A stretch of 64,000 nt of DNA from an uncultured Opitutia bacterium (GCA_903877135.1 CAIRCN010000042.1:62001-126000); one strand, 5' to 3'; shown: positions 51,602-64,000, counted from the stretch's first letter. Notes: generated from the sequence alone by a model not told the origin. Translations and numbers: made by a program.

Positions 51602-51638
51602 AAGCCGCGTCGCACGCAATGTGCCGCGCGGCTTTTTT
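51602..51638 (+). terminator. Rho-independent terminator
   Basis: AAGCCGCG at 51602-51609 pairs with CGCGGCTT at 51627-51634, with inner GCAC/GTGC pairing, followed by further T residues to 51638. It ends the 51243-51578 gene and abuts the stop codon of the convergent permease gene (51637-51639), whose transcription may also be affected. Confidence 0.8.
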
Positions 51639-52875
51639 ATTCGTAGCGCAGCGCCTCGATCGGGTCGAGCGCAGCGGCTTTCCAGGCGGGATAGAAGCCA
51701 AAACCCACGCCGATCCCTGAACACACGATGATACCGATGGCGGCCCAGTCCCACGGGAAAACGATCGACGCCTTCAGCATCATCGCCAAGCCGTTGCCTG
51801 CGATCACGCCGAGCAAGATCCCCGCGATTCCGCCGAGGAGCGAGATCGTCACCGACTCGATGAGGAACTGGATCAGAATGCTGGCCTTGCGCGCGCCAAT
51901 AGATTTGCGGATGCCAATCTCCTTCGTGCGCTCCGTCACGCTCACGAGCATGATGTTCATGATGCCCACACCGGCCGCCAGGAGCGCGATGCCGCTGATG
52001 ACAAACGAGCCCGCCGCCACCACGTCGGCCACCTTGGCGAAGGCGGCGATCATCGAGTCGTTGGAGTAGAGCTCGAAGTCGTTATCGTTCTCGGCCTTCA
52101 GTCCACGCACAATGCGCATGGCGGTGATGGCCTTGTCGATGGTCTCGTTGTAAAGGGTCTGGCTGGGCGCCTGCGTGGCGATGTTGACGGTGAATTTATT
52201 GGCGCCGAAATCGCTCAGAAATCGGGTGATCGGCACGAGGGCGAAGTCATCCTGACTCTGGCCGAACATCGAGCCCTTTTCGGCCAAAATGCCGATCACC
52301 GTGTAGGCGCGGTCGTTCACCTTGATCATCTTGCCGAGGGGTGACTCGGAGGGAAACAGCTTCTTCAAAATATCCTGACCGATGAGCACGACTGGCCGCC
52401 CAAGCTCGACATCCTCGGCAGTGAGGTTGCGCCCGTGGTCGATCGCGAACTGGTTGGCGGTGAGAAAATGTTCGTTGCTACCGACGAAGTTCAGCCCGGG
52501 CGTGGTCTTGCGGTTTTGATAGACGGCCTGCACGGGACCATCCTGATTGAAAACCTTCAGGCATATGACGTCGCTGTGATCCTCCATCAGTCGCTGGTAA
52601 CGCATGGCCTGCGCGAGGGTGATGTTCCGCCGCGAGTCGTATTTGTGGCGGTTGGGCCCGTCACTCTGCATGACGGGAAACTTGCCGAACTGAAACATGT
52701 TCGTCCCCAGAAAGCTCAGGCCGGTCTCGATCGAGCCGCGCAGCGCCGAGACGGTGGTCATCACGCCGATGACGGAGAAGACGCCGATGGTGATGCCGGC
52801 CATGGTGAGGATGGAGCGGAGCTTGTTCACCCCGAGCGAACCGAAGGCCATCCGGAGAATTTCTTTGAGGAGCAT
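51637..52875 (-). CDS. MacB-type ABC transporter permease (second of two)
   Basis: 412 residues from ATG 52875; the frame opens further upstream to 52959, which lies inside the preceding gene. Topology fits MacB/FtsX: one membrane span (VNKLRSILTMAGITIGVFSV, about 20-45), a large periplasmic core (about 50-285, with PVVLIGQDILKKLFPSESPL), then three spans near the C-terminus including IMNIMLVSVTERTKEIGIRK and the conserved YPAWKAAALDPIEALRYE end. There is no fused ATPase domain. It is the last gene of adaptor-ATPase-permease-permease; two distinct permeases imply a heterodimeric membrane unit. Substrate not predictable (lipoprotein, peptide or toxin export are the known roles). Confidence 0.88.
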   Translation of the reverse strand: MLLKEILRMAFGSLGVNKLRSILTMAGITIGVFSVIGVMTTVSALRGSIETGLSFLGTNMFQFGKFPVMQSDGPNRHKYDSRRNITLAQAMRYQRLMEDHSDVICLKVFNQDGPVQAVYQNRKTTPGLNFVGSNEHFLTANQFAIDHGRNLTAEDVELGRPVVLIGQDILKKLFPSESPLGKMIKVNDRAYTVIGILAEKGSMFGQSQDDFALVPITRFLSDFGANKFTVNIATQAPSQTLYNETIDKAITAMRIVRGLKAENDNDFELYSNDSMIAAFAKVADVVAAGSFVISGIALLAAGVGIMNIMLVSVTERTKEIGIRKSIGARKASILIQFLIESVTISLLGGIAGILLGVIAGNGLAMMLKASIVFPWDWAAIGIIVCSGIGVGFGFYPAWKAAALDPIEALRYE

Positions 52876-52888
52876 GGCAGCGGTTGGG

Positions 52889-54139
52889 TTATTCGTAGCG
52901 GAGCGCGACGACGGGATCGAGGCGCGAGGCGCCCCACGCCGGCGCGAAGCCGGACACAATGCCCGTGAGCACCGAGACGGCCATGCTGACGAACACGAGG
53001 CCCACGGAGAACTCGACGGGCAGCGCCGGCATCGCGTGCTGCAGGGCCAGACAGGTGGCGTAGGTTAGCGTCAGCCCGACGGCGCCGCCGATCAGGCAGA
53101 TCGAGACGGCCTCGATCAGGAATTGCAGGAGAATCGTGCGGCGGCGGGCGCCGAGGGCCTTGCGGGTGCCGATCTCCTTCGTGCGCTCCTTCACGCTCAC
53201 GAAGGTGATATTCATGATGCCGATCGCGCCGACGAAGAGCGACAGGCCGGTGATAAAAAGTCCCGCGAGGGCGATGCCCGACTTCACAGGATCGAGCTGC
53301 GCCTTGAACGCCTGCTGCTGGTTGATCGTGAAATTGTCGCGCTCGCCGGGCAGTTGCGCCCGCACCCGCCGCATCGCGCCGATCAGTTCATCGTTGGCCG
53401 CGGCGAGCTGCAGTTTGTCCTTCACCTTCACCTGCAGTTCGGTGTTGCGCCGGACGCCAAAGTATTTCCGAAAGGCGTTGAGCGGCATGATCGCCTGAGT
53501 ATCGAAGCTGAACAGGCCGAGGAACGAGCCCTGTTTCGCCAGCACGCCGATCACCTGGAAAGGCTGCCCCTGGATCGTAACCGTCTGGTCGATCGGCGAA
53601 CTCGTGGGAAAGAGCGCATCAGCCACATCTTTACCCAGCACGCAGACCTGCCGGCCGGCGATGGACTCGGTCTCGTTGAATAGCCGGCCGTCCTCGAAAT
53701 CCGCGGTCATCAGGCGAGCGTAATCACTCGTGGTGCCTTGGACAAAAACACCGCCCACCTGATTTTCACCAAACTTGACGGAAGCGCCGCGGGCGCACAC
53801 CGGCACGGCGGTCTCGAGCAGAGAATTAGGGGTGTTCTCTATCACGCGGTTAAGCCGCTCGGCGTCTGCGGGGAGGACTTGCGGGCGATTGACGTAGTTC
53901 CACCAGTCTTCGGCGCCGAACCACGGCCATTTTTGCACGTGGAGCACATCGTCGCCCAGCATGGCGAGGCTGCGCTCAAAGCCGATGTCAATGCCGTTGA
54001 TGGCCGTGCCCATGAGCGTGACGGCGACGATGCCGATGATCACGCCGAGCGCCGTCAACACCGAGCGCATCTTGTTCGCCCGGATCTGGGCGAAGGCGAT
54101 GCGGAAAGATTCCGTGAGCTCGTAGAGGAGGAGGGCCAT
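52889..54139 (-). CDS. MacB-type ABC transporter permease (first of two)
   Basis: 416 residues starting MALLLYELTESFRIAFAQIR. First span NKMRSVLTALGVIIGIVAVT, MacB periplasmic core (about 50-290), then IMNITFVSVKERTKEIGTRK and GFAPAWGASRLDPVVALRYE at the C-terminus. It is 37 bases downstream of the ATPase and 13 bases upstream of the second permease, so a single transcript is expected. It shares the order of motifs with its partner but differs through much of the core, so the pair is old and not a fresh duplication. Confidence 0.88.
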   Translation of the reverse strand: MALLLYELTESFRIAFAQIRANKMRSVLTALGVIIGIVAVTLMGTAINGIDIGFERSLAMLGDDVLHVQKWPWFGAEDWWNYVNRPQVLPADAERLNRVIENTPNSLLETAVPVCARGASVKFGENQVGGVFVQGTTSDYARLMTADFEDGRLFNETESIAGRQVCVLGKDVADALFPTSSPIDQTVTIQGQPFQVIGVLAKQGSFLGLFSFDTQAIMPLNAFRKYFGVRRNTELQVKVKDKLQLAAANDELIGAMRRVRAQLPGERDNFTINQQQAFKAQLDPVKSGIALAGLFITGLSLFVGAIGIMNITFVSVKERTKEIGTRKALGARRRTILLQFLIEAVSICLIGGAVGLTLTYATCLALQHAMPALPVEFSVGLVFVSMAVSVLTGIVSGFAPAWGASRLDPVVALRYE

Positions 54140-54176
54140 CGGATTATGGATTTGCGATGCTAGATTTTTAGGAAAA

Positions 54177-54917
54177 TCAGAACACCGCGCCGTCGCTTTC
54201 GATCAGGCCGTCGCGCAAGCGGACCACGCGGCGGGCGTGGCGGGCGATGTCTTCCTCGTGGGTGACGACGATGATAGTCTGACCCTGCTCGTAGAGTTGC
54301 TCGAAGAGTTCCATGATCTCGGTGCCGGTCTTGGAGTCGAGATTGCCGGTGGGCTCGTCGGCGAGGATGATGGAGGGATTGTTGACGAGCGCGCGGGCGA
54401 TGGCGACGCGCTGGCGCTGGCCGCCGGAGAGCTCGTTGGGCCGGTGGTGCACACGGTCCGCGAGGCCGACGTTGGCGAGGGCCTGCATTGCCCGCTCGTG
54501 CCGGGCGTGCGGCGCCATGCCGGCGTAGATCAGCGGCAGTTCGACGTTGCGCAGGGCGTCGGAACGCGGGAGCAGGTTGAAGGTTTGAAACACAAACCCG
54601 ATTTCGCGGTTGCGGATGCCCGCCAGCTCGTCGTCGGACATGTGGGCGACGTTCTTGCCATTGAAATCGTAGCGGCCAGAGGTCGGCGTATCGAGGCAGC
54701 CGAGCATGTTCATCAGCGTCGACTTGCCGGAGCCCGACGGGCCCATGATCGCGAGGTATTCGTTGCGACGGATCTCCAGCGAAACGCCACGGAGGGCGTG
54801 GATGATCTCCGAGCCCATTTTGTAGAGCTTGGAGACGTCTTCGATTTCGATGACAAGCGAGCCGGCCGGGCGGATGGGGCGGGCCGCGGTGGCGGCAGGT
54901 GCTGGGGGAGGTGTCAT
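54177..54917 (-). CDS. ABC transporter ATPase, MacB/LolD type
   Basis: 246 residues. A Pro/Ala-rich start, then the ABC core: [20 protein letters not shown], Walker [11 protein letters not shown]-loop [20 protein letters not shown], signature [15 protein letters not shown], Walker [14 protein letters not shown] and the H-loop IVVTHEED. It powers the two permeases downstream; MacB-like pumps work through a mechanotransmission cycle in which the substrate is moved from the periplasm outward. Located 22 bases after the adaptor gene. The related LolD system moves lipoproteins; the adaptor partner here favours export. Confidence 0.93.
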
Positions 54918-54939
54918 GACCGGTGGAGCGGCGGCGGCG

Positions 54940-56313
54940 TTATTTCTTGTCCGCGGGTTTCGGTTTTTCGATCTGCACCTGCATCCCGTCCTTCAGTTTG
55001 CGGCTGATGGCGGCATAGCTGCCGGAGACGATCTCGTCGCCAGCGTTGACGCCCTTCTTCACCTCGATGTGCGTGTTGTCGGCGATGCCGGTCTCGACGG
55101 TCTGCATCTTTACCTTGTCGCCGGTCTTGATGAAGACGACACGGAGGAGCTTGTCACGGTCGCGCCGGGCCTCCTCGCGCTCGTTTTTCACTTCGAGGTC
55201 ATTGCCAGATTTTTCCTGGGCCGCCTTGGCCTTCTTTTGCTGCAACTCATCGGAGGTGATGCCGCCTTCGGCGCGCACGGTAACGCTCTGGATGGGCACG
55301 GCGATGACGTTGGCAACGGTCTGCGTCTCGATATCGGCGGTGGCGCTCATGCCGGGGCGCAACTGGACGTCGCGGTCGGCGATGCGGATTTTTACGAGGA
55401 AGTTGGTGACGGAGTCGCTGACGGTCGAGCTGGCTTGAGCGCTGGCGCCGGAGCCCGCGGTGCCATCGGCCGAACTGCCGATCTCGTGGACGGTGCCTGA
55501 GAATTTCCGGGCCGGATAGGCGTCGATGCTGATGACAGCCTTGTCTCCAATCTTCACGTTGACGATGTCGTTTTCATTCACCTTCACGCGCAGTTCCATG
55601 TTGCTGAGGTCGGCGACCCGCATGATTTCCGTGCCGGCGAAGGAGCCGGTGCCGACGACGCGCTCGCCGATTTCGCTGGTGAGCGAGCTGATGGTGCCAT
55701 CCATCGGGGAGAAAATAATGGTTTTGGAGAGCTGGTCGCGGAACTGGTTCAGCGATCCTTCGGTCCGGCGAATCTGGGCAAGCGCGTTGTCGTAGTTGGC
55801 CTGCGCGACTTCGAGCGCCGTGCTGGCTGTCTGGTAGTCAGAGTCGGAAATGAGTTTCTTGGCGAAAAGATCCTGCGAGCGTTTGCAGTCGTCCTGCGCC
55901 TTGATGAGCTGGGCCTTGGCCTGGACCGCCGAGGCTTTGGCGGCGACGAGATTGGCCTCCTGCTGTTCGACTTGGGCCTGATAAGTGTCGGGCTTGATTT
56001 TCACGAGCAGATCGCCTTTTTTCACGTGGTTGCCCTCCTTCACGGGCATCTCGGTGATTTCGCCGGCGACCTCGGGGGAGATTTTCACCTCGGTCTCGGG
56101 CTGGACCTTGCCGGTCGCCGTCACGACCTGGGTGATGGTCTTGACAATGGCTTTTTCGGTGGTGACGGGCGTGCCGGTGTCTTGGTGACCTTTGGCGTAG
56201 GCGGCCCAGCCACCCAAGCCGAGGAGCAGGACAGTCCCGCCGATAATGAACCATTTCAGATTCGATTTTTTCTTGGGCTGAGGAGCCGTGGAGGAGGCGG
56301 GGGCCGGTTTCAT
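54940..56313 (-). CDS. Periplasmic adaptor (MacA/HlyD type)
   Basis: 457 residues from ATG 56313 ([20 protein letters not shown]), a short basic cytoplasmic tail followed by one membrane anchor ([20 protein letters not shown], about 21-41). First lipoyl half [20 protein letters not shown], an alpha-hairpin of about 90 residues ([20 protein letters not shown] to [20 protein letters not shown]) and beta-barrel parts follow. A charged insert (about 370-405, [20 protein letters not shown] and [12 protein letters not shown]) in the C-terminal region is unusual. First gene of the MacAB-like operon. The outer-membrane partner is not encoded nearby; the MdtABC-linked channel at 10121 could in principle serve. 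Confidence 0.9.
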
Positions 56314-56666
56314 GGGAAGGTAGGTGCGGTTGGAAGAAAAAACATCAAACAAGTCTGCGGTGTTGGCAAGCGGCCACCCCATTCCCAGCCAAACAGGTGG
56401 AGAGGCCCACAACGGCCCCTCCACCCGACAAAACAACTGAATGGCTAACTATGAACGGAACAGAGCAAACTGGCCGCACCGGAAAGGAAAACGCGTTTGC
56501 GATGAACCGCGCACACTCCGCGACGAAGCGGCGTGAGACGAAGACTGGCAAACGGCTGACCTGGGCTGGCGCTGGCATGTCCCGACAACACCTGCCGGAT
56601 ACCGAAAGTTACACGATTTTTTGATGAACGGGTCGCGCGGGGGATAGGCGGGCGGGCGCCGCCGGG
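56314..56666. other. Intergenic region upstream of the ABC export operon
   Basis: 353 bases between the divided transcription units. It contains a strong hairpin (listed at 56396-56425) and otherwise no convincing ORF. The end of the ROK kinase gene is at 56667, so the region must carry the promoter of the adaptor gene and possibly the kinase terminator. I see nothing else. Confidence 0.5.
56396..56425 (-). promoter_or_regulatory. Strong hairpin in the leader of the ABC adaptor gene
   Basis: GGTGGAG at 56396-56402 and CTCCACC at 56419-56425 pair exactly, with an inner GGCC/GGCC helix and a six-base loop; one A/C mismatch interrupts. It is 83 bases upstream of the adaptor ATG (56313) and would be transcribed if the promoter lies beyond it. 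No T-run of note follows, so an attenuator or protein site is as likely as a terminator. Confidence 0.4.
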
Positions 56667-57404
56667 CTATGCCAATGGCTCCGCCGCCCACGCGGCGGCG
56701 CCGACGATGCCGGCTTCGTTCCGTAATTTCGCCGGCACCATCCGCGCCCGCGGCTTCACAAAGCGAAAAAACCTGCGGCTCTTCGCGCTCACACCGCCGC
56801 CGATAATGATGAGCTCGGGCCAGAGGATATGCTCCAGCATGCGAACGTAGCCGCCAAGTTCCACGCCCCACTCTTCCCACGACAGGCCGCGCCGCTTGCG
56901 GGCCAAAGCCGAGACGAACCGCTCCGCGTCCCTTCCGCGCATGGGCAGGTGACCCAATTCGCACGGCACCACCGACCCGCGGAAAACCAGCGCCGAGCCG
57001 ATGCCCGTGCCCAGCGTGAGCAGGAGCGCCTTGCCCTGAAAGCCCCGACCCGCGCCATACCGCATTTCGGCCAGCGCCGCTGCCGCCGCGTCGTTCGTCA
57101 GCGCCACGCGGCAGCCGGTCGCCGCCGCAAAGAGCTTCACGCCGTCGCAGCCGACGAATTTCGGGTGCAGGTTCGCCGACGTCAGGATCCGCGAACCGTG
57201 AATGACCCCCGGAAAACCGATGCCGACCGGCCCGTGCCACTTGAAATGCTGCGCGATCTGAGCGACGATTTTCGCCGTAGCGGCGGGGGTGGCGATTTTA
57301 GGGATCTCGATGCGTAACCGCTCCGCGAGGAGCCAGCCGGTCTTGAGGTCAACGGGCGCGCCCTTGATGGCCGAGCCGCCGATGTCGATGCCGAGGGTTT
57401 TCAT
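56667..57404 (-). CDS. ppgK: Polyphosphate glucokinase (ROK family)
   Basis: 245 residues. Starts [20 protein letters not shown], the ROK phosphate-1 motif; then [31 protein letters not shown] with the catalytic Asp in [20 protein letters not shown] (phosphate-2) and [13 protein letters not shown], in which the EHLxxRG-type wording is typical of PPGK and not of ordinary ROK glucokinases. It should phosphorylate glucose with polyphosphate, and possibly ATP, in the cytoplasm. Length agrees with bacterial PPGKs. It is a single gene, 142 bases from the LuxR-type gene, with the same orientation. Confidence 0.9.
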
Positions 57405-57546: not shown

Positions 57547-57825
57547 CTACCTTAACAGAGCAATCAGCCGCATGCGGGTCGGCACGCCGCATTTGCTCAG
57601 GCAGGCGCTGACTTGGTTCTTAATCGTCGCCTCGGATTTGCCGAGTGCCACCGCAATCTCGCGATTGCTCAAGCCCTCTGCGAGGTGCGCAGCCACCACG
57701 CGCTCCGCCGGCGAGAGCCATTCCATCGGCGGGCTTGATTCGCCAAGGCGTGCAGAAACTTCATGCCACGTCGCCGTTGGAGAAATCGCTTCCAGAATCA
57801 TCGGGAGACAAATGGCGTCGGCCAA
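57547..57825 (-). CDS. Stand-alone LuxR/GerE-type helix-turn-helix protein
   Basis: 92 residues. The C-terminal 60 residues are a GerE domain: MEWLSPAERVVAAHLAEGLS, NREIAVALGKSEATIKNQVS, ACLSKCGVPTRMRLIALLR. The leading 30 residues do not resemble a receiver, so the protein is a small DNA-binding unit lacking a sensing domain, unlike the roughly 210-residue NarL/FixJ response regulators. It starts 6 bases after the end of the seven-domain thioredoxin gene on the same strand and is probably its operon partner. It could be a truncated regulator or a functional small one. Confidence 0.82.
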   Translation of the reverse strand: MADAICLPMILEAISPTATWHEVSARLGESSPPMEWLSPAERVVAAHLAEGLSNREIAVALGKSEATIKNQVSACLSKCGVPTRMRLIALLR

Positions 57826-57831
57826 CCCGGA

Positions 57832-60800
57832 TCACTCGCGCTTCTTTAGGTCCTCGGCGCCTTTTGCGATGAGAGCCGGATCGACCTTCACTCCAGCCTT
57901 CGCCAGCGCGGCGTCGAGGATGGTCTCGCCCTTCAGGTAACCGGTGACCAAGGCGACGACCTTGCCCTCGCGGTCGATGATGAACTGCTGGGGAATGCCG
58001 CCGACACCGTAGAACTTGTGCGAGGCGCGGTCCGGCGAACGCTCGGCCGGGTCGTGCGAGAAGTGGATGTCGGGATACTGTTCCTGATTGCGCTTCACCC
58101 ACGACTCGAACTTCGCGCGGGCGTCGCTGGTGCAGTTGGCCAGAACGACCACGCCCTGATCCTTGTAGTGCGCGGCGACTTCCTGCGTATGCGCCATCGA
58201 GGCAAGGCACGGTCCGCACCACGTCGCCCAGAAATCGAGGATGACGACCTTGCCGCGATAATCGGAGACCTTCAGCGGTTTCCCTTCGACGTCGGTCGCG
58301 GGAAAATCGGGCGCGGTGGCGCCGACTTTGAGCAGGTCGACCTTCGGCTCCGGCGGTTTTTCCTTCGTCTCCTCGGCGGTGAAAACTTTCTTTGGCATGT
58401 CCTCGGGCGCGAGTTTCACACCAGCGCGAAGGAGCAGGTTGCCGAGTGAGTCGGCGATCTGCGGACCCGCACCGACGTAGAAACCGAGGAAGTTGCCCTT
58501 TGCGTCGATGACGAGGTTGTTAGGAATCGGCGCCATGGTGCCGCCAGTGATCGCCATGGGAATGACCTTGCCGTAATGCTCGCGGGTGGCCGCCTTGAAG
58601 GCCGCTTTCTCCTCGTCGGTCATCTCGTTCATGGAATCTTTGGCCGGCCGCGGAGGCGCACCGGCCGGATCAAACACGACGGGGAAGGAAATTTTCGGCG
58701 CGTTGGCGGCGTGCCATTTGGCAAAATCCTCGCGCGAACCGTAGGCGCCGACGCCGAGGAAGAGCACGCCCTGTGCGGCGTATTTCTTCGCCCAGGCATC
58801 TTGAAACGCGAGCATCTCCGCGGGAAGGCCGTGACCGGCGCCCCAGAAACTGAGCACCATGGTTTTGTCTTTCGCGAGATCGGAAAACTTGACGGCGGCA
58901 CCGGCGGCGTCCTCCGCGGTGAAGTCCGGCACGGGCTGGCCGGCCTTCAGTTTGCCGTAGCTCACGAGAAAGTGCGGCTTGGGATTTTTCTCCTCGTCCT
59001 TCGCGGCGGCGGCACGCTCGGCCTCTTCCTCGGCCGCGGCCTTGAGCTGTTTCTCACCTGCGGCGACGCGCGCGGTGTCCACTTTTACGCCAGCGCGGGC
59101 GAGCGCAGCCTCGGTGCGGGCGTCTTCCTTGCCGCCGTTGCCGACAATGGTGGCGGTGATCTTCCCGTCGCGGCCGATGACGAATTGCGTGGGGATACCC
59201 ACGACATGGTAGAGCCGCTGCGACGCGCGCTGGTCGAAGGTGGCGGAGTCGCGCTCGTTTGGATCAAAGGCAAACAGCATGTCCGGATACTTCGGCTGGT
59301 TCTTGGGAATCCATTCCTTGAACTTGGCAATCAAGTCGCTCGTGCCGGACGCGAGGACGACGACGCCCTGGTCCTTGTATTTGGCGGCGTTCTCCTGCGT
59401 GTGGGGCATCGAGGCGATACACGGACCGCACCATGTCGCCCAGAAATCGAGGATGACGACCTTGCCCTTGAAATCGGAGAGTTTCACTTCTTTGCCATCG
59501 ACGGTCTGCATGGCGAAATCCGGTGCGACGGCCCCGGCCTGCAGTGTGCCGGGCTTGGTCTCAGAATTTCCCGGAAGTTTCACGGCTGGTTTCGCAGCGG
59601 AGCCAGCGGGAAAAAATACCTTGGGCTTGTCGGCGGGTGCCAACTCGACTCCGGCGATCATCAACAGATTGGCCAGAGCGTCGTGGGTGGCCTCACCGTA
59701 GCCGCTGTAATTCCCGACGAACTTGCCGGTGGCGTTAAAGACGAGTGTCGTCGGCAGCGGGGTCAGCGCCCCGTGGGAGAGCTGCATCATGATGGTTTTC
59801 GCGTAGGCATCCTTGTCCTTCGCGGCCGGCTTGCCCACGGGATCAAACACCGTCGGAAAGGTGTATTTTCCCTTGTTGGTTTCCAGCCAATTCGCGTAGG
59901 CCTCGCGAGTGTCGAAGCAACAGATGCCGAGAATCACCACGCCCTTGTCGCGGTATTTGCTGTAAATCTCCTGATAGTGCGGCATGGCCTGCTGGCAGGG
60001 GCCGCACCACGTCGCCCAGAAATCGAGGATGACGGTCTTACCCTTGGCGTAGTCGGAGAACTTCGCCTCCTTGCCCTCGGGCGTGAGCACAGTGAAGTCG
60101 GGCACGGTTTCGCCGGCTTTCAGCTTGCCATAGTTTTCGCGGAAGGGCGGACGCGGCTTCTTGTCCGCTTCGGGCTTGGCCGGGGGATTTTCTTTTTCCT
60201 CCTTGGCAATCTGCTCGCGGCCTTTCGCGACAATCGCGGCGTCTACCCTCACGCCGGCGGCGGCCAGAGCAACCTCGGCCCGGGCATCGCCTTCGTCATA
60301 GCCCACGACCACGCCGGTGATCTTGCCATCGCGACCGATAACGAACTGCGTCGGAATGCCCACGACGTGGTAGAGCTTGCTCGAGGCGCGCTCATCAAAC
60401 GTCGCCGATCCGCGCTCGTTCACATCGTAGCCGAAACGGATGTCGGGATACTTCGGTTGGTTCTTGGGAATCCACTCCTTGATGCTGGCAGTCTTGTCGC
60501 TCGTCCCGGCGCCAAGCACGACGACGTCTTGATCCTTGTATTTGGCGGCGAGTTCCTGCGTGTGCGGCATCGAGGCCATGCACGGCCCGCACCATGTCGC
60601 CCAGAAATCGAGGATGACCACCTTGCCCTTGAAGTTCGAGAGGTGGACGTCGTTGCCCGTCACGTCCTTCATCAGGAAATCCGGGGCCGCGGCGCCGACG
60701 GTGAGCGTCGGTAGGCGAGGTGGCGCTGGCTTGTCGGAACCGGGCGCGGGTTTGATCAGCGCGGCGGGCATCGCATCACCCATGGGGCCGGTTCCCGCGG

Positions 60801-62028
60801 CGCGCATCGCGCCACCTGCAGCCACAAGCGCGGCGAGATGTTCCTTGGTGAGCCTCACGCCGTTGCGGGCGAGCATCGAATAAACCATCGCCACCACCTT
60901 GTCGCCCATGCCGATGGTGCCACTCCAGAGCTTGCCCTCGGAGTTGAGCACGACGGTGGCGGGATACATGCCGACGCCGAAGATGGTGTTAGTCGCGTTC
61001 TCCGCCCACGCCTTGCCGGCCGGATCCCAGGCGACAGCGAAGCCGGGATTGGGATTGGCGGCGACCCACTTGTCGAAATCAGCGCGCTCGGTCGCCGAAA
61101 ACACGGCGAGAACCGCGAGCGATTGATCCTTGTAGGTGGCGGCGAGTTTCGCGACCCACGGCTGCGGGCCGTTGGAGGTGTTGAACTGCACGAGCAGCGT
61201 CTTGCCGCGGAACGAGGAAAGCTTGACCGGCTGACCGTCGGCGCCTGTCAACGTGAAATCGGTGACCACGGTGCCGCGCTGGACGCCGCCGAATTTGTCG
61301 GGGGTGAAACCGCCACCCTTGGGCGCGCCGCCATCCATGCCGACCATCGGCGTGGATGCCCGCATCGCAGGGGTTTTCATCATCGCCGGAATCGACTTCG
61401 GCTCGTTGGGATCCCTCTTGGGCTCTGGTGGAATCGCGGCGAGATCGACCTTGGCGCCGGCGCGGCCGAGGGCGTATTCCAGCCGGTAGTCATCGCCGGG
61501 ACCGCCGCCGGAAATCGTTTCGGTGATTTTGCCGTCGCGGCCGATGACGAACATCGTCGGGAAACCGCTGACGTGATATTTGGTGTTGAACGCCGAGTCC
61601 TTCCAGCCTTCGCGGCCGGCCGGATCGAAGAGCATTTTGAACTGATATTTCTCGCTGTTGCGCTCCACCCAGCTGTCGTAGTTGCCGCGCGAGTCATCGG
61701 CGGTGATGCCGAGCAGCACCACACCTTGATCCGCATATTTGCGGTAAACGCGGTCGTTGTTGGGCATTGCCGCCTGACACGGGCCGCACCAGGTGGCGGA
61801 GACGTCGACGATCACAATTTTCCCAGCGAAGTCGGAAAGCTTGACCGTGTCCCCCTTCGCTCCGAGCGCACTGAATTGCGGTGCGACGTCGCCCTTGGCG
61901 AGCCAGGTCGAGCCCGGAGTCGCGGCGGTTGAGGTGGGCACCGTGGCAGGCGCATCGGTCGCATGAAGCGACAACGCAGCCGCACCTAGCGCAGCGGAGA
62001 GAACAAAGTGACGGAGGAGGTTTTTCAT
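57832..62028 (-). CDS. Exported protein of seven tandem thioredoxin-like (TlpA-type) domains
   Basis: 1398 residues, with signal peptide MKNLLRHFVLSAALGAAALS before LHA. Seven TlpA/AhpC-TSA-like domains follow. Active sites: CGPC at 81-84 (domain 1), SNGP at 285-288 (2, no Cys), CGPC at 480-483 (3), CGPC at 675-678 (4), CGPC at 867-870 (5), HGLP at 1066-1069 (6, no Cys) and CGPC at 1271-1274 (7). Each keeps the cis-Pro loop (GFPT, MYPAT, GIPT, PLPT, GIPT, PIPN, GIPQ). Domains 3, 5 and 7 share one sequence type and 4 and 6 another, indicating duplication of a two-domain unit. TlpA proteins reduce periplasmic disulfides, for example in cytochrome c maturation, or act with receptors. This multiplicity is unusual, and a role as a disulfide relay is inference. 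Coupled to the LuxR-type gene. Confidence 0.9.
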   Translation of the reverse strand: MKNLLRHFVLSAALGAAALSLHATDAPATVPTSTAATPGSTWLAKGDVAPQFSALGAKGDTVKLSDFAGKIVIVDVSATWCGPCQAAMPNNDRVYRKYADQGVVLLGITADDSRGNYDSWVERNSEKYQFKMLFDPAGREGWKDSAFNTKYHVSGFPTMFVIGRDGKITETISGGGPGDDYRLEYALGRAGAKVDLAAIPPEPKRDPNEPKSIPAMMKTPAMRASTPMVGMDGGAPKGGGFTPDKFGGVQRGTVVTDFTLTGADGQPVKLSSFRGKTLLVQFNTSNGPQPWVAKLAATYKDQSLAVLAVFSATERADFDKWVAANPNPGFAVAWDPAGKAWAENATNTIFGVGMYPATVVLNSEGKLWSGTIGMGDKVVAMVYSMLARNGVRLTKEHLAALVAAGGAMRAAGTGPMGDAMPAALIKPAPGSDKPAPPRLPTLTVGAAAPDFLMKDVTGNDVHLSNFKGKVVILDFWATWCGPCMASMPHTQELAAKYKDQDVVVLGAGTSDKTASIKEWIPKNQPKYPDIRFGYDVNERGSATFDERASSKLYHVVGIPTQFVIGRDGKITGVVVGYDEGDARAEVALAAAGVRVDAAIVAKGREQIAKEEKENPPAKPEADKKPRPPFRENYGKLKAGETVPDFTVLTPEGKEAKFSDYAKGKTVILDFWATWCGPCQQAMPHYQEIYSKYRDKGVVILGICCFDTREAYANWLETNKGKYTFPTVFDPVGKPAAKDKDAYAKTIMMQLSHGALTPLPTTLVFNATGKFVGNYSGYGEATHDALANLLMIAGVELAPADKPKVFFPAGSAAKPAVKLPGNSETKPGTLQAGAVAPDFAMQTVDGKEVKLSDFKGKVVILDFWATWCGPCIASMPHTQENAAKYKDQGVVVLASGTSDLIAKFKEWIPKNQPKYPDMLFAFDPNERDSATFDQRASQRLYHVVGIPTQFVIGRDGKITATIVGNGGKEDARTEAALARAGVKVDTARVAAGEKQLKAAAEEEAERAAAAKDEEKNPKPHFLVSYGKLKAGQPVPDFTAEDAAGAAVKFSDLAKDKTMVLSFWGAGHGLPAEMLAFQDAWAKKYAAQGVLFLGVGAYGSREDFAKWHAANAPKISFPVVFDPAGAPPRPAKDSMNEMTDEEKAAFKAATREHYGKVIPMAITGGTMAPIPNNLVIDAKGNFLGFYVGAGPQIADSLGNLLLRAGVKLAPEDMPKKVFTAEETKEKPPEPKVDLLKVGATAPDFPATDVEGKPLKVSDYRGKVVILDFWATWCGPCLASMAHTQEVAAHYKDQGVVVLANCTSDARAKFESWVKRNQEQYPDIHFSHDPAERSPDRASHKFYGVGGIPQQFIIDREGKVVALVTGYLKGETILDAALAKAGVKVDPALIAKGAEDLKKRE

Positions 62029-62043
62029 GGGGGATTGGACAGT

Positions 62044-62072
62044 GAGAACCCGCCGGGTTGCGGCGGGTTCTC
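62044..62072 (-). terminator. Strong hairpin between the TonB receptor and seven-domain thioredoxin genes
   Basis: GAGAACCCGCC at 62044-62054 pairs perfectly with GGCGGGTTCTC at 62062-62072 around a seven-base loop. It lies 32 bases past the receptor stop and 15 bases before the thioredoxin ATG (62028), in a region without a T-run. It may terminate or attenuate transcription of the downstream pair, or stabilise an mRNA end after processing. Confidence 0.6.
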
Positions 62073-62104: not shown

Positions 62105-64000
62105 TTAATTCAACGGAATGACGCAGGAGATCTGGTAGGCGCGACCGAGGATCAGCTGGCTGTGAAGGGCGGAGTCGAAGCCCCACACGGTGTCGGAGAA
62201 GGGCGGTTTTTTGTCCGCGACGTTGTCCACGCCGACCGACACGCGGAGGCCCTTGCCGTAACTGCGCCAGACGCCCGTCTTGAACTCATAGCCGAGGCGC
62301 AGGTCGAGTTTGCTCACGGCCGGCGTCGGGTAGAAGACTATCGTGGCGCTGTTTGCGACCAGGGCGTTGCCAGCGTTGTTGGAGGTGAAACTGTCGAGAT
62401 ACCAGAGGAAGGCCGAGGCATTCCACGAGCCCTGACGCCAGAACAACGCGGTGGTGAACGACCACTTCGGAGGCGCACCTGTGTCGCCATCCAGCACAAC
62501 GGCAGGCTGGCCGGGGGCCAGTTGTCGGGAGGCGGCCATGGTGCGGCTGGCATCCACACTGAAGCGCCAGCGACCGTAGCGTTCCCATGGCAGCGTGTAT
62601 TCCAAAACATAGTCCATGCTCTTGTTGGTAACTATGCCGAAGTTTACGAACTCGCGGTTCACCGCGGTGATCTGGCCGGGTTGGTTGGCCGCCTGATCGG
62701 CTGCCGTGGCCGCGGCGCGGGTCACGCGGCCGGGGAAGAGCGCCTCGTTGTTGATGATGGTCTGCGCACTGAGCAGTTGCAGCACGTTTTTCTGCTCGGT
62801 GTCGTAGTAATTCACCTGAAAGTTAATGCCTTTCATGAAGGTGGGTTCAAAGACGAGACCGGCGAAGGTGTTGTCGGAGAGTTCGGGATTCGGATTTGGA
62901 TTGGAGCCGGTGGTGACAATCACGCCTGCAGTCGAGGCGCTTCCGCGCGCCGGGTCGATCAGCGTCGACGTGGTCACGCCGTTGGCGACCAAGTATTCTG
63001 TCACGCCGGGGGCGCGGAAACCCTGACTCCAACTGCCGCGGAGGAGCAGCGACTGCGTGGGGCTCCACGACACACCGTATTTCGGCACCGACTTGGAGAA
63101 CGGACCATCCTTCTCGGTGCGGCCGGCGACATTGATGTCGAACCGATTCAACAGGGGTGCGGCATTGGGTTTGCCGAACACCGGGATCTGGATTTCGCCG
63201 AACACCGCTGTCGATTTCTGGCCGCCGGAGACGACGGGATTGGTCACGACCGGAGTGATAGCCGTCGAGAAATTGAGCGCGCTGCTCACGACATCATCGC
63301 GGGTCCAAGAGCCGCCAAAAGCCATCTTGGCTTCACCGCCCCAAAAGCTGAAGAGGTCGCCATCGGCCGAGAAGTCCACACCGCGAGACTTCGACGCCGA
63401 AGTGACCGAAGGATAGAGCGAGAGAGTTTCAAGGAGTGCGGCTTGCGAGGGTGCGCCGGGCGCACTGGCGTCAATGAAGGGGTTGAAGCGCTGCGTTGGA
63501 TCTACATTATTCAGCAGGCCAGCGAACCGGGAGGTGTTGAAATTCCGCGTGATCTGCCGCACGTCCTGCCGCTCCCACGTGGTGGCGAGATCCCATTGCC
63601 AGGTCTTGGCGGCCTTGCCGCGCAGGCCGAGCGTGCCCGAGCCGTCCACCGTGCGCACCCGCTGAGTCTGGGAACCCCAGTCCGACAGGATCATGCCGAT
63701 TTGGACGGTCTGGTTGAAGGGGTTATAGGCCGCTGACACCGTCGCCGGCGAGCCAAAGCCGCCGGTGATCGAAGTGGTCGGCTGGGTGGCGAACAGGCTC
63801 CACGAATCGCTGGTGCGATAGTTGAGGTAGGCCTCGATTCGGTCGTTGAAGGCATATTGGAGGTTGCCGCTGGCGCCGGTGCGTCGGGCGAGCGGAATCA
63901 AGTCCAAGAATGAAGCGGTATTGCCCCGGCGCTGGTATTTGAGGTTTATAACTGTGTCAGGCGACGCGATAGTCGTCACTGGGATAAACTGTGAGAGGGT
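62105..64000 (-). CDS. TonB-dependent receptor, C-terminal part (cut by window edge)
   Basis: The frame is open to the last base, so the gene continues beyond the window; about 632 C-terminal residues are visible. Barrel features include repeated amphipathic strands with W/Y/F turns, SLLLRGSWSQGFRAPGVTEY (typical TonB-receptor wording), NPELSDNTFAGLVFEPTFMK, ISVGVDNV-type strand near the end (VSVGVDNVADKKPPFSDTVW) and a terminal strand AYQISCVIPLN. It lacks the usual terminal aromatic residue. The plug and signal peptide are missing here because they are beyond 64000. It stands 76 bases upstream of the thioredoxin gene on the same strand, a receptor-redoxin order seen in several outer-membrane uptake systems. 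Confidence 0.85.
   Translation of the reverse strand, partial: TLSQFIPVTTIASPDTVINLKYQRRGNTASFLDLIPLARRTGASGNLQYAFNDRIEAYLNYRTSDSWSLFATQPTTSITGGFGSPATVSAAYNPFNQTVQIGMILSDWGSQTQRVRTVDGSGTLGLRGKAAKTWQWDLATTWERQDVRQITRNFNTSRFAGLLNNVDPTQRFNPFIDASAPGAPSQAALLETLSLYPSVTSASKSRGVDFSADGDLFSFWGGEAKMAFGGSWTRDDVVSSALNFSTAITPVVTNPVVSGGQKSTAVFGEIQIPVFGKPNAAPLLNRFDINVAGRTEKDGPFSKSVPKYGVSWSPTQSLLLRGSWSQGFRAPGVTEYLVANGVTTSTLIDPARGSASTAGVIVTTGSNPNPNPELSDNTFAGLVFEPTFMKGINFQVNYYDTEQKNVLQLLSAQTIINNEALFPGRVTRAAATAADQAANQPGQITAVNREFVNFGIVTNKSMDYVLEYTLPWERYGRWRFSVDASRTMAASRQLAPGQPAVVLDGDTGAPPKWSFTTALFWRQGSWNASAFLWYLDSFTSNNAGNALVANSATIVFYPTPAVSKLDLRLGYEFKTGVWRSYGKGLRVSVGVDNVADKKPPFSDTVWGFDSALHSQLILGRAYQISCVIPLN

Follow-up and report, generated by a model that had tools for sequence, protein, structure and literature searches.

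The window, a stretch of 64,000 nucleotides from an uncultured Opitutia bacterium (GCA_903877135.1, CAIRCN010000042.1:62001-126000) that belongs to the Opitutaceae within the Verrucomicrobiota, encodes a protein with seven thioredoxin-like domains, two of which lack the active-site cysteines. Our analysis suggests that this array is a multivalent periplasmic disulfide reductase, which is supplied with electrons by DsbD, contains pseudo-redoxin modules and serves a TonB-dependent uptake system that is made together with it. We assign this reading as a whole a probability of roughly 0.5. The reductase step on its own, with DsbD as the electron donor, appears probable and is the best reading of the protein, because active sites of the reducing type (five CGPC sites), an export signal and a repeated linkage to DsbD come together; the same observations argue for the multivalent thiol-disulfide reductase that had been put forward in a preliminary description of this DNA. 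That the client of the array is something imported by the neighboring receptor has, in our view, about even odds. It is suggested by the constant receptor partner, by the lack of conserved cysteines in this receptor and by the peptidase and cysteine-metabolism genes in the neighborhood.

Domain architecture and predicted structure

The array gene is one open reading frame with an ATG start that reads from 62028 down to 57832 on the minus strand (Table 1). The Pfam families AhpC-TSA (E 5.7e-133) and Redoxin (E 1.8e-118) each match seven stretches of the protein, and translation shows a Sec-type signal sequence (MKNLLRHFVLSAALGAAALSLHA) at its start, so that the seven redoxin domains and the export proposed in the preliminary description are both borne out. 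The positions it gave for the five CGPC sites (residues 81, 480, 675, 867 and 1271) are exact, with cysteine pairs at 81/84, 480/483, 675/678, 867/870 and 1271/1274. Five domains (D1, D3, D4, D5 and D7) combine WCGPC with a cis-Pro, whereas D2 and D6, which have SNGP and HGLP, are without CxxC and keep the cis-Pro only (YPA in D2, IPN in D6). Tested singly, D1, D2, D4 and D6 each exceed the AhpC-TSA cut-off, the isolated D2 with 31.0 bits and D6 with 51.1 bits at a gathering score of 26. An alignment of the seven domains distinguishes D1, D2, an A-type (D3, D5 and D7, 56-73% mutual identity) and a B-type (D4 and D6, 43%), in which an insert precedes the cis-Pro. Each domain belongs to the TlpA/ResA redoxins, and the best curated family is ResA-like (NF002854). 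A peroxiredoxin of the AhpC kind was ruled out, since all seven domains have either WCGPC or no cysteine at the place of the peroxidatic PxxxTxxC motif.

The protein has three further cysteines at 703, 704 and 1299. Cys 1299 (window 58132-58134) is a third cysteine in D7, lies in an NCTSD/SCTSD motif following a core strand and is found in 25 of 28 relatives. Cys 703 and 704 belong to D4, and 12 of 23 relatives have a cysteine at a seemingly equivalent place of D1. A single-domain paralogue with 72% identity to D7 is encoded on another contig of the same genome (L074:5272-5904, minus strand; G000:C69); a clear signal sequence was not seen in its open frame.

Structures were predicted with the alignments of the relatives in two pieces. 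The D5-D7 model has a predicted template modelling score (pTM) of 0.67 and a mean predicted local distance difference test score (pLDDT) of 89.5, and the confidence of D6 equals that of its neighbors. The D1-D3 model (pTM 0.42, mean pLDDT 72.8) shows folded domains with disordered linkers after D1 and D2. In both pieces the domains without CxxC were modelled as complete thioredoxin-like folds, with the strand and helix order of the active domains, as had been supposed. The nearest solved folds are reducing periplasmic redoxins of the TlpA/ResA/DsbE-type (DsbE-type 3gl3, ResA: Z 20.1, 1.6 A, 140 residues), and the Foldseek lists agree with this; these matches fell mostly on D7, and the fold of D2 and D6 rests on Pfam, conservation and the predicted order of secondary structure elements.

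The models also bear on the way in which the domains might work together. The array could be a chained relay, in which electrons are handed from domain to domain, as would fit the several active sites per chain, the alternation of A and B domains and the conserved third cysteine in D7. However, the cysteine-less domains between the active ones break a neighbor-to-neighbor chain, D1 and D2 are predicted to be followed by disordered linkers, and the existence of relatives with two and three domains indicates that length is not essential. We therefore regard a relay as very unlikely, and independent heads on a string would fit the D1-D3 model at least as well.

Relatives and conservation

Relatives of the array were collected by a pattern-based scan of 84,980 species genomes, which also provides the coverage outside the Verrucomicrobiota, and from 100 Opitutaceae genomes. 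With this coverage, other phyla may have multi-redoxin arrays that arose separately. The most frequent form comprises approximately 1015-1090 residues with five domains, in the order active D1, cysteine-less D2, active A, cysteine-less B and active A, and this alternation is spread over many genera of the Opitutaceae. Shorter relatives consist of a cysteine-less B and an A domain, of A and active B, or of A, cysteine-less B and A, so that the family ranges from two to seven domains; in L021, D1, D2, an active B and an A domain are followed by the end of the contig. Seven domains occur in three genomes, those of the window, L008 and L019. A search for homologs with the same domain order, as proposed beforehand, thus found the seven-domain gene of L008, which lies on one contig and shares 81% identity with that of the window, and that of L019. 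In the latter (L019:3254-7646), a frameshift splits the gene into four plus three domains with overlapping frames, which is either a sequencing error or a real split. The notion that seven domains in one chain are a singular oddity holds only in part: seven domains are rare, but the five-domain relative with the same alternation exists in many genera.

The distribution of the arrays is patchy, with about 23 of the 100 sampled Opitutaceae genomes possessing one. Among 388 sampled genomes of the phylum, only Opitutaceae yielded matches at E 1e-60. A close match was not found in another genome of the window's genus, and the plasmid records contained no array relative at E 1e-30. Because around three quarters of the sampled family genomes lack an array and nearly all have DsbD, the array is an accessory and not a housekeeping protein. 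A literature search yielded no description of TlpA proteins with several thioredoxin domains, of thioredoxin arrays in Opitutaceae or of operons combining TonB, DsbD and TlpA, which is a weak negative because subscription papers were thinly covered. At one further locus (L072; G018:C34), several adjacent single-domain redoxin proteins are encoded in a row between TonB receptors, perhaps as a dispersed counterpart of the array.

The cysteine-less domains are conserved as such. In the relatives, neither D2 nor the cysteine-less B domains (orthologs of D6) have a cysteine pair at the place of CxxC, and the cis-Pro is almost always retained. The ratio of nonsynonymous to synonymous substitutions (dN/dS) between the window and L008 is 0.17 for D1, 0.21 for D2, 0.19 for D3, 0.22 for D4, 0.11 for D5, 0.07 for D6 and 0.12 for D7. 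Judging from these values, D2 and D6 are maintained by purifying selection, and together with the conserved loss of cysteines and the retained cis-Pro this points to functional rather than decayed domains, as the preliminary description had considered possible. Among distant relatives, D6 has a mean column identity of 0.63, compared to 0.80 for D5 and 0.81 for D7; a higher variability is what a binding or spacing domain would show when no catalytic constraint acts on it.

These observations also make it extremely improbable that the gene is an assembly artefact or a decaying repeat array. Genomes derived from metagenomes may contain misassembled repeats, and the gene of L019 is split by a frameshift. 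However, the independent genome L008 has the same seven domains in the same order on a single contig, the sequences of D3 and D5 in the window diverge at 25% of their bases, which is too much for a duplication during assembly, and every domain is under purifying selection.

Linkage to DsbD and to a TonB-dependent receptor

A gene for DsbD lies at most 20 kb from the array gene in 13 of the 23 genomes that have arrays of at least two domains (9 of 14 genera, in several orientations). By chance, such a proximity would be expected for approximately 1% per genome, where the counts were made by hand and the binomial treats genomes as unrelated, ignoring kinship. In most of the linked loci, DsbD is accompanied by a PALP enzyme that is closest to cysteine synthase and scores below the curated cut-offs. 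An M16 peptidase with a signal-like N-terminal sequence and the motif HxxEH is encoded near the array in L014/L064, L015, L019, L021, L063 and L067, and in L008 a beta-eliminating lyase follows directly downstream of the array. In the window genome, two M16 peptidase genes form a tandem elsewhere (G000:C44:90063-95665), one of them 65% identical to the array-side M16 of the relatives.

The linkage to DsbD is predicted equally if the array is a general reductase of periplasmic quality control or, like ResA or CcmG, a reductase of cytochrome c apo-proteins, and has no more than an operon in common with a TonB receptor. The ResA-like curated family and the nearest folds (ResA, DsbE, TlpA) fit this possibility, and cytochrome c assembly proteins are present in the window genome. 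Their genes are located on other contigs (C56 and C22), however, and no cytochrome maturation gene was among the neighbor clusters scanned. A housekeeping role is also difficult to reconcile with the absence of the array from about three quarters of the family genomes, nearly all of which have DsbD, and a general one with the fact that the array travels with one orthologous receptor. We consider this explanation rather doubtful.

Upstream of the array gene, and separated from it by 76 bases, lies the receptor gene. In the window genome the order is sigma factor, FecR, TonB receptor with STN domain and array, and it recurs in most relatives. Pfam identified Sigma70_r2/r4_2, FecR and STN, Plug and barrel domains in the genes of L073; the STN match reaches 25.8 bits in the window genome (cut-off 28.4) and 29.5 bits in L015. 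The receptors linked to arrays are orthologous in most loci (45-65% identity), whereas the best of the other receptors in the window genome reach 25-34%. They contain between zero and three cysteines per protein, none of which is shared, and it is therefore unlikely that the receptor itself is the client of the array.

For the same reason, we judged the neighboring receptor unlikely as a folding client. This weakens the explanation that the array isomerizes the disulfides of outer-membrane or surface proteins in its regulon or helps these proteins to fold, in which case the cysteine-less domains would be chaperone domains like those of the eukaryotic protein disulfide isomerase (PDI). Active and inactive thioredoxin domains within one chain are the layout of PDI, and a TonB receptor gene does adjoin the array. 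However, CGPC is the motif of reducing thioredoxins, CGHC that of PDI and CPHC that of DsbA, and all active sites of the array are CGPC. The repeated linkage, too, is to the reductant DsbD, whereas DsbA and DsbB were not among the named neighbor clusters, although no search was aimed at them. An isomerase is thus unlikely.

Origin of the seven-domain form

In the domain tree, D3 of the window, L008 and L019 form one clade (support 99, starred) within the group of middle A domains. D4 joins L019, L021 and stand-alone proteins of an A and an active B domain from two sister genomes (L056/L057; support 84, not starred), and it is separate from all cysteine-less B domains (97, starred). These sister genomes carry the active A-B pair as a separate gene, which in L057 (G087) immediately follows the core gene. 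The simplest reading would be that the seven-domain chain is a five-domain core (D1, cysteine-less D2, A, cysteine-less B, A) that received an active A-B pair behind D2, ahead of the core A domain.

The two ends of the chain have different trees. For D5-D7, the window, L008, L015 and L019 group together (99, starred), whereas for D1-D2 the window and L008 stand at the opposite side of the deepest branch from L015 and L019. A constraint uniting the three seven-domain rows was rejected for D1-D2 (p-value of the approximately unbiased test, p-AU, 1.8e-50) but not for D5-D7 (0.10). As it appears from these trees, which are unrooted and do not give the direction of events, lineages have swapped the D1-D2 cassette, as compared to D5-D7, in the array genes of L008, L019 and L015.

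Proposed function

We infer where the array is located, in which direction electrons flow, what its substrate is and what the cysteine-less domains do from domain content, predicted fold, the conserved alternation, selection, gene order and the linkage to DsbD. The receptor would take in a substrate that contains disulfides, most likely a peptide or a small protein, and the array would be made together with this receptor under FecI/FecR-type control. Electrons would then pass from cytoplasmic thioredoxin via DsbD to the array, which would open the disulfides of the substrate. In several relatives, the exported M16 peptidase and the cysteine-synthase-like enzyme might subsequently process the products. 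By analogy with PDI, the cysteine-less domains most likely would be binding or spacing modules.

Several points weigh against a DsbD-fed reductase that serves uptake. The single DsbD gene of the window genome (C6) and its M16 ortholog (C44) lie away from the array, a close PALP was not found in this genome, and L008 likewise has none of these genes near its array. Fewer than half of the loci have the M16 gene next to the array. Moreover, the module of sigma factor, FecR and TonB receptor suggests regulation by an uptake event and not disulfides in the cargo, which could be anything, and neither redox potentials nor the direction of electron flow are readable from a sequence.

Known members of the TlpA/ResA/CcmG (DsbE) group (PF08534, PF00578) have one redoxin domain, and bacterial periplasmic reductases in general are known chiefly as proteins with a single domain. 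The active domains of the array share with them the fold, WCGPC, the cis-Pro, the export and, in many genomes, the linked partner of the DsbD-type, but differ by forming chains of five to seven domains with two cysteine-less ones at fixed positions. In the PDI family, ERdj5 (DNAJC10) likewise has several thioredoxin domains per chain, active and inactive ones mixed. It is the nearest functional parallel, although the array does not belong to the PDI family: it is bacterial, its domains are TlpA-type with CGPC motifs, the array protein has no Pfam match to a DnaJ (J) domain, and a common origin of the layout is not shown. ERdj5 is a reductase of the endoplasmic reticulum that readies proteins for degradation (PMC5751730).

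The neighboring genes resemble FecI/FecR/FecA signalling in that an extracytoplasmic function (ECF) sigma factor, a FecR-like protein and a TonB receptor with an STN domain are encoded in one operon. Here, however, the thioredoxin array follows instead of genes for a binding protein and an ATP-binding cassette (ABC) transporter. The uptake of ferredoxin by the Fus system is a precedent for the import of a protein via a TonB receptor and its degradation by an M16 peptidase in the periplasm (PMC7593965). Both the Fus system (receptor FusA and M16 protease FusC) and the array loci have a TonB receptor and, alongside it, an exported M16 peptidase, but the constant partner in the latter is the disulfide reductase array, and the M16 gene is found in a minority of loci. 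Tentatively, the array might be seen as an independently evolved bacterial counterpart of ERdj5, a machine of alternating active and pseudo-redoxin domains that would unlock disulfide-bonded peptides or proteins imported via TonB, prior to M16 proteolysis and use of the cysteine, and whose length would have varied by cassette shuffling.

Other features of the locus

The gap between the receptor and the array gene contains an inverted repeat spotted by eye (GAACCCGCC/GGCGGGTTC, window 62043-62070), which could be an attenuator or a hairpin that stabilises the mRNA. Scans of the array locus for promoters and terminators gave no excess over shuffled sequences. A relative of the small LuxR/GerE-type protein listed in Table 1 is also encoded downstream of the array in L014/L064, L019 and L063. 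As far as can be told from the translations, positions 56667-57404 hold a ROK-kinase-like gene, and downstream of it lies an efflux-type operon (51637-56436, minus strand) with two MacB-like permeases, an ABC ATPase and a membrane-fusion protein.

Table 1. Features of the array locus; positions are those of the window unless a record outside it is named
Feature	Position	Strand	Basis
Small LuxR/GerE-type helix-turn-helix protein, 84 amino acids, directly downstream of the array	57547..57801	minus	genome context
Gene of the seven-domain exported thioredoxin-like array, 1398 amino acids	57832..62028	minus	translation, Pfam
D7, active A-type, CGPC 1271-1274, conserved extra Cys 1299	57874..58341	minus	relatives, structure comparison, cysteine count
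D6, cysteine-less B-type (HGLP), cis-Pro PIPN, helical insert ahead of the cis-Pro	58414..58971	minus	alignment, selection, model, Pfam
D5, active A-type, CGPC 867-870, third domain of the five-domain core	59074..59559	minus	relatives, model
D4, active B-type, CGPC 675-678, clusters in the tree with the B domain of the separate two-domain proteins from L056/L057	59659..60129	minus	Pfam, domain tree
D3, active A-type, CGPC 480-483, member of the putatively inserted pair, 73% identity to D5	60253..60717	minus	alignment, domain tree
D2, cysteine-less (SNGP), cis-Pro MYPA, thioredoxin-like fold retained	60823..61302	minus	alignment, selection, model, Pfam
D1, active, CGPC 81-84, cis-Pro GFPT	61444..61905	minus	alignment, model, Pfam
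Sec-type signal peptide region	61960..62028	minus	translation
TonB-dependent receptor, C-terminal part; remainder including the STN domain past the window edge	62105..64000	minus	genome context
FecR-like gene, outside the window	L073:9482-10567	minus	Pfam FecR
ECF (FecI-like) sigma factor gene, outside the window	L073:10571-11167	minus	Pfam Sigma70_r2/r4_2

Significance

With five to seven domains per chain and cysteine-less copies that stand at constant places under selection, the arrays of the Opitutaceae offer a bacterial case for learning the purpose of non-catalytic thioredoxin domains. The dedicated TonB receptor and the link to DsbD suggest that the opening of disulfides may be a step of nutrient uptake across the outer membrane. 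If disulfide opening does serve uptake, a wider range of cargo would be expected for TonB receptors.

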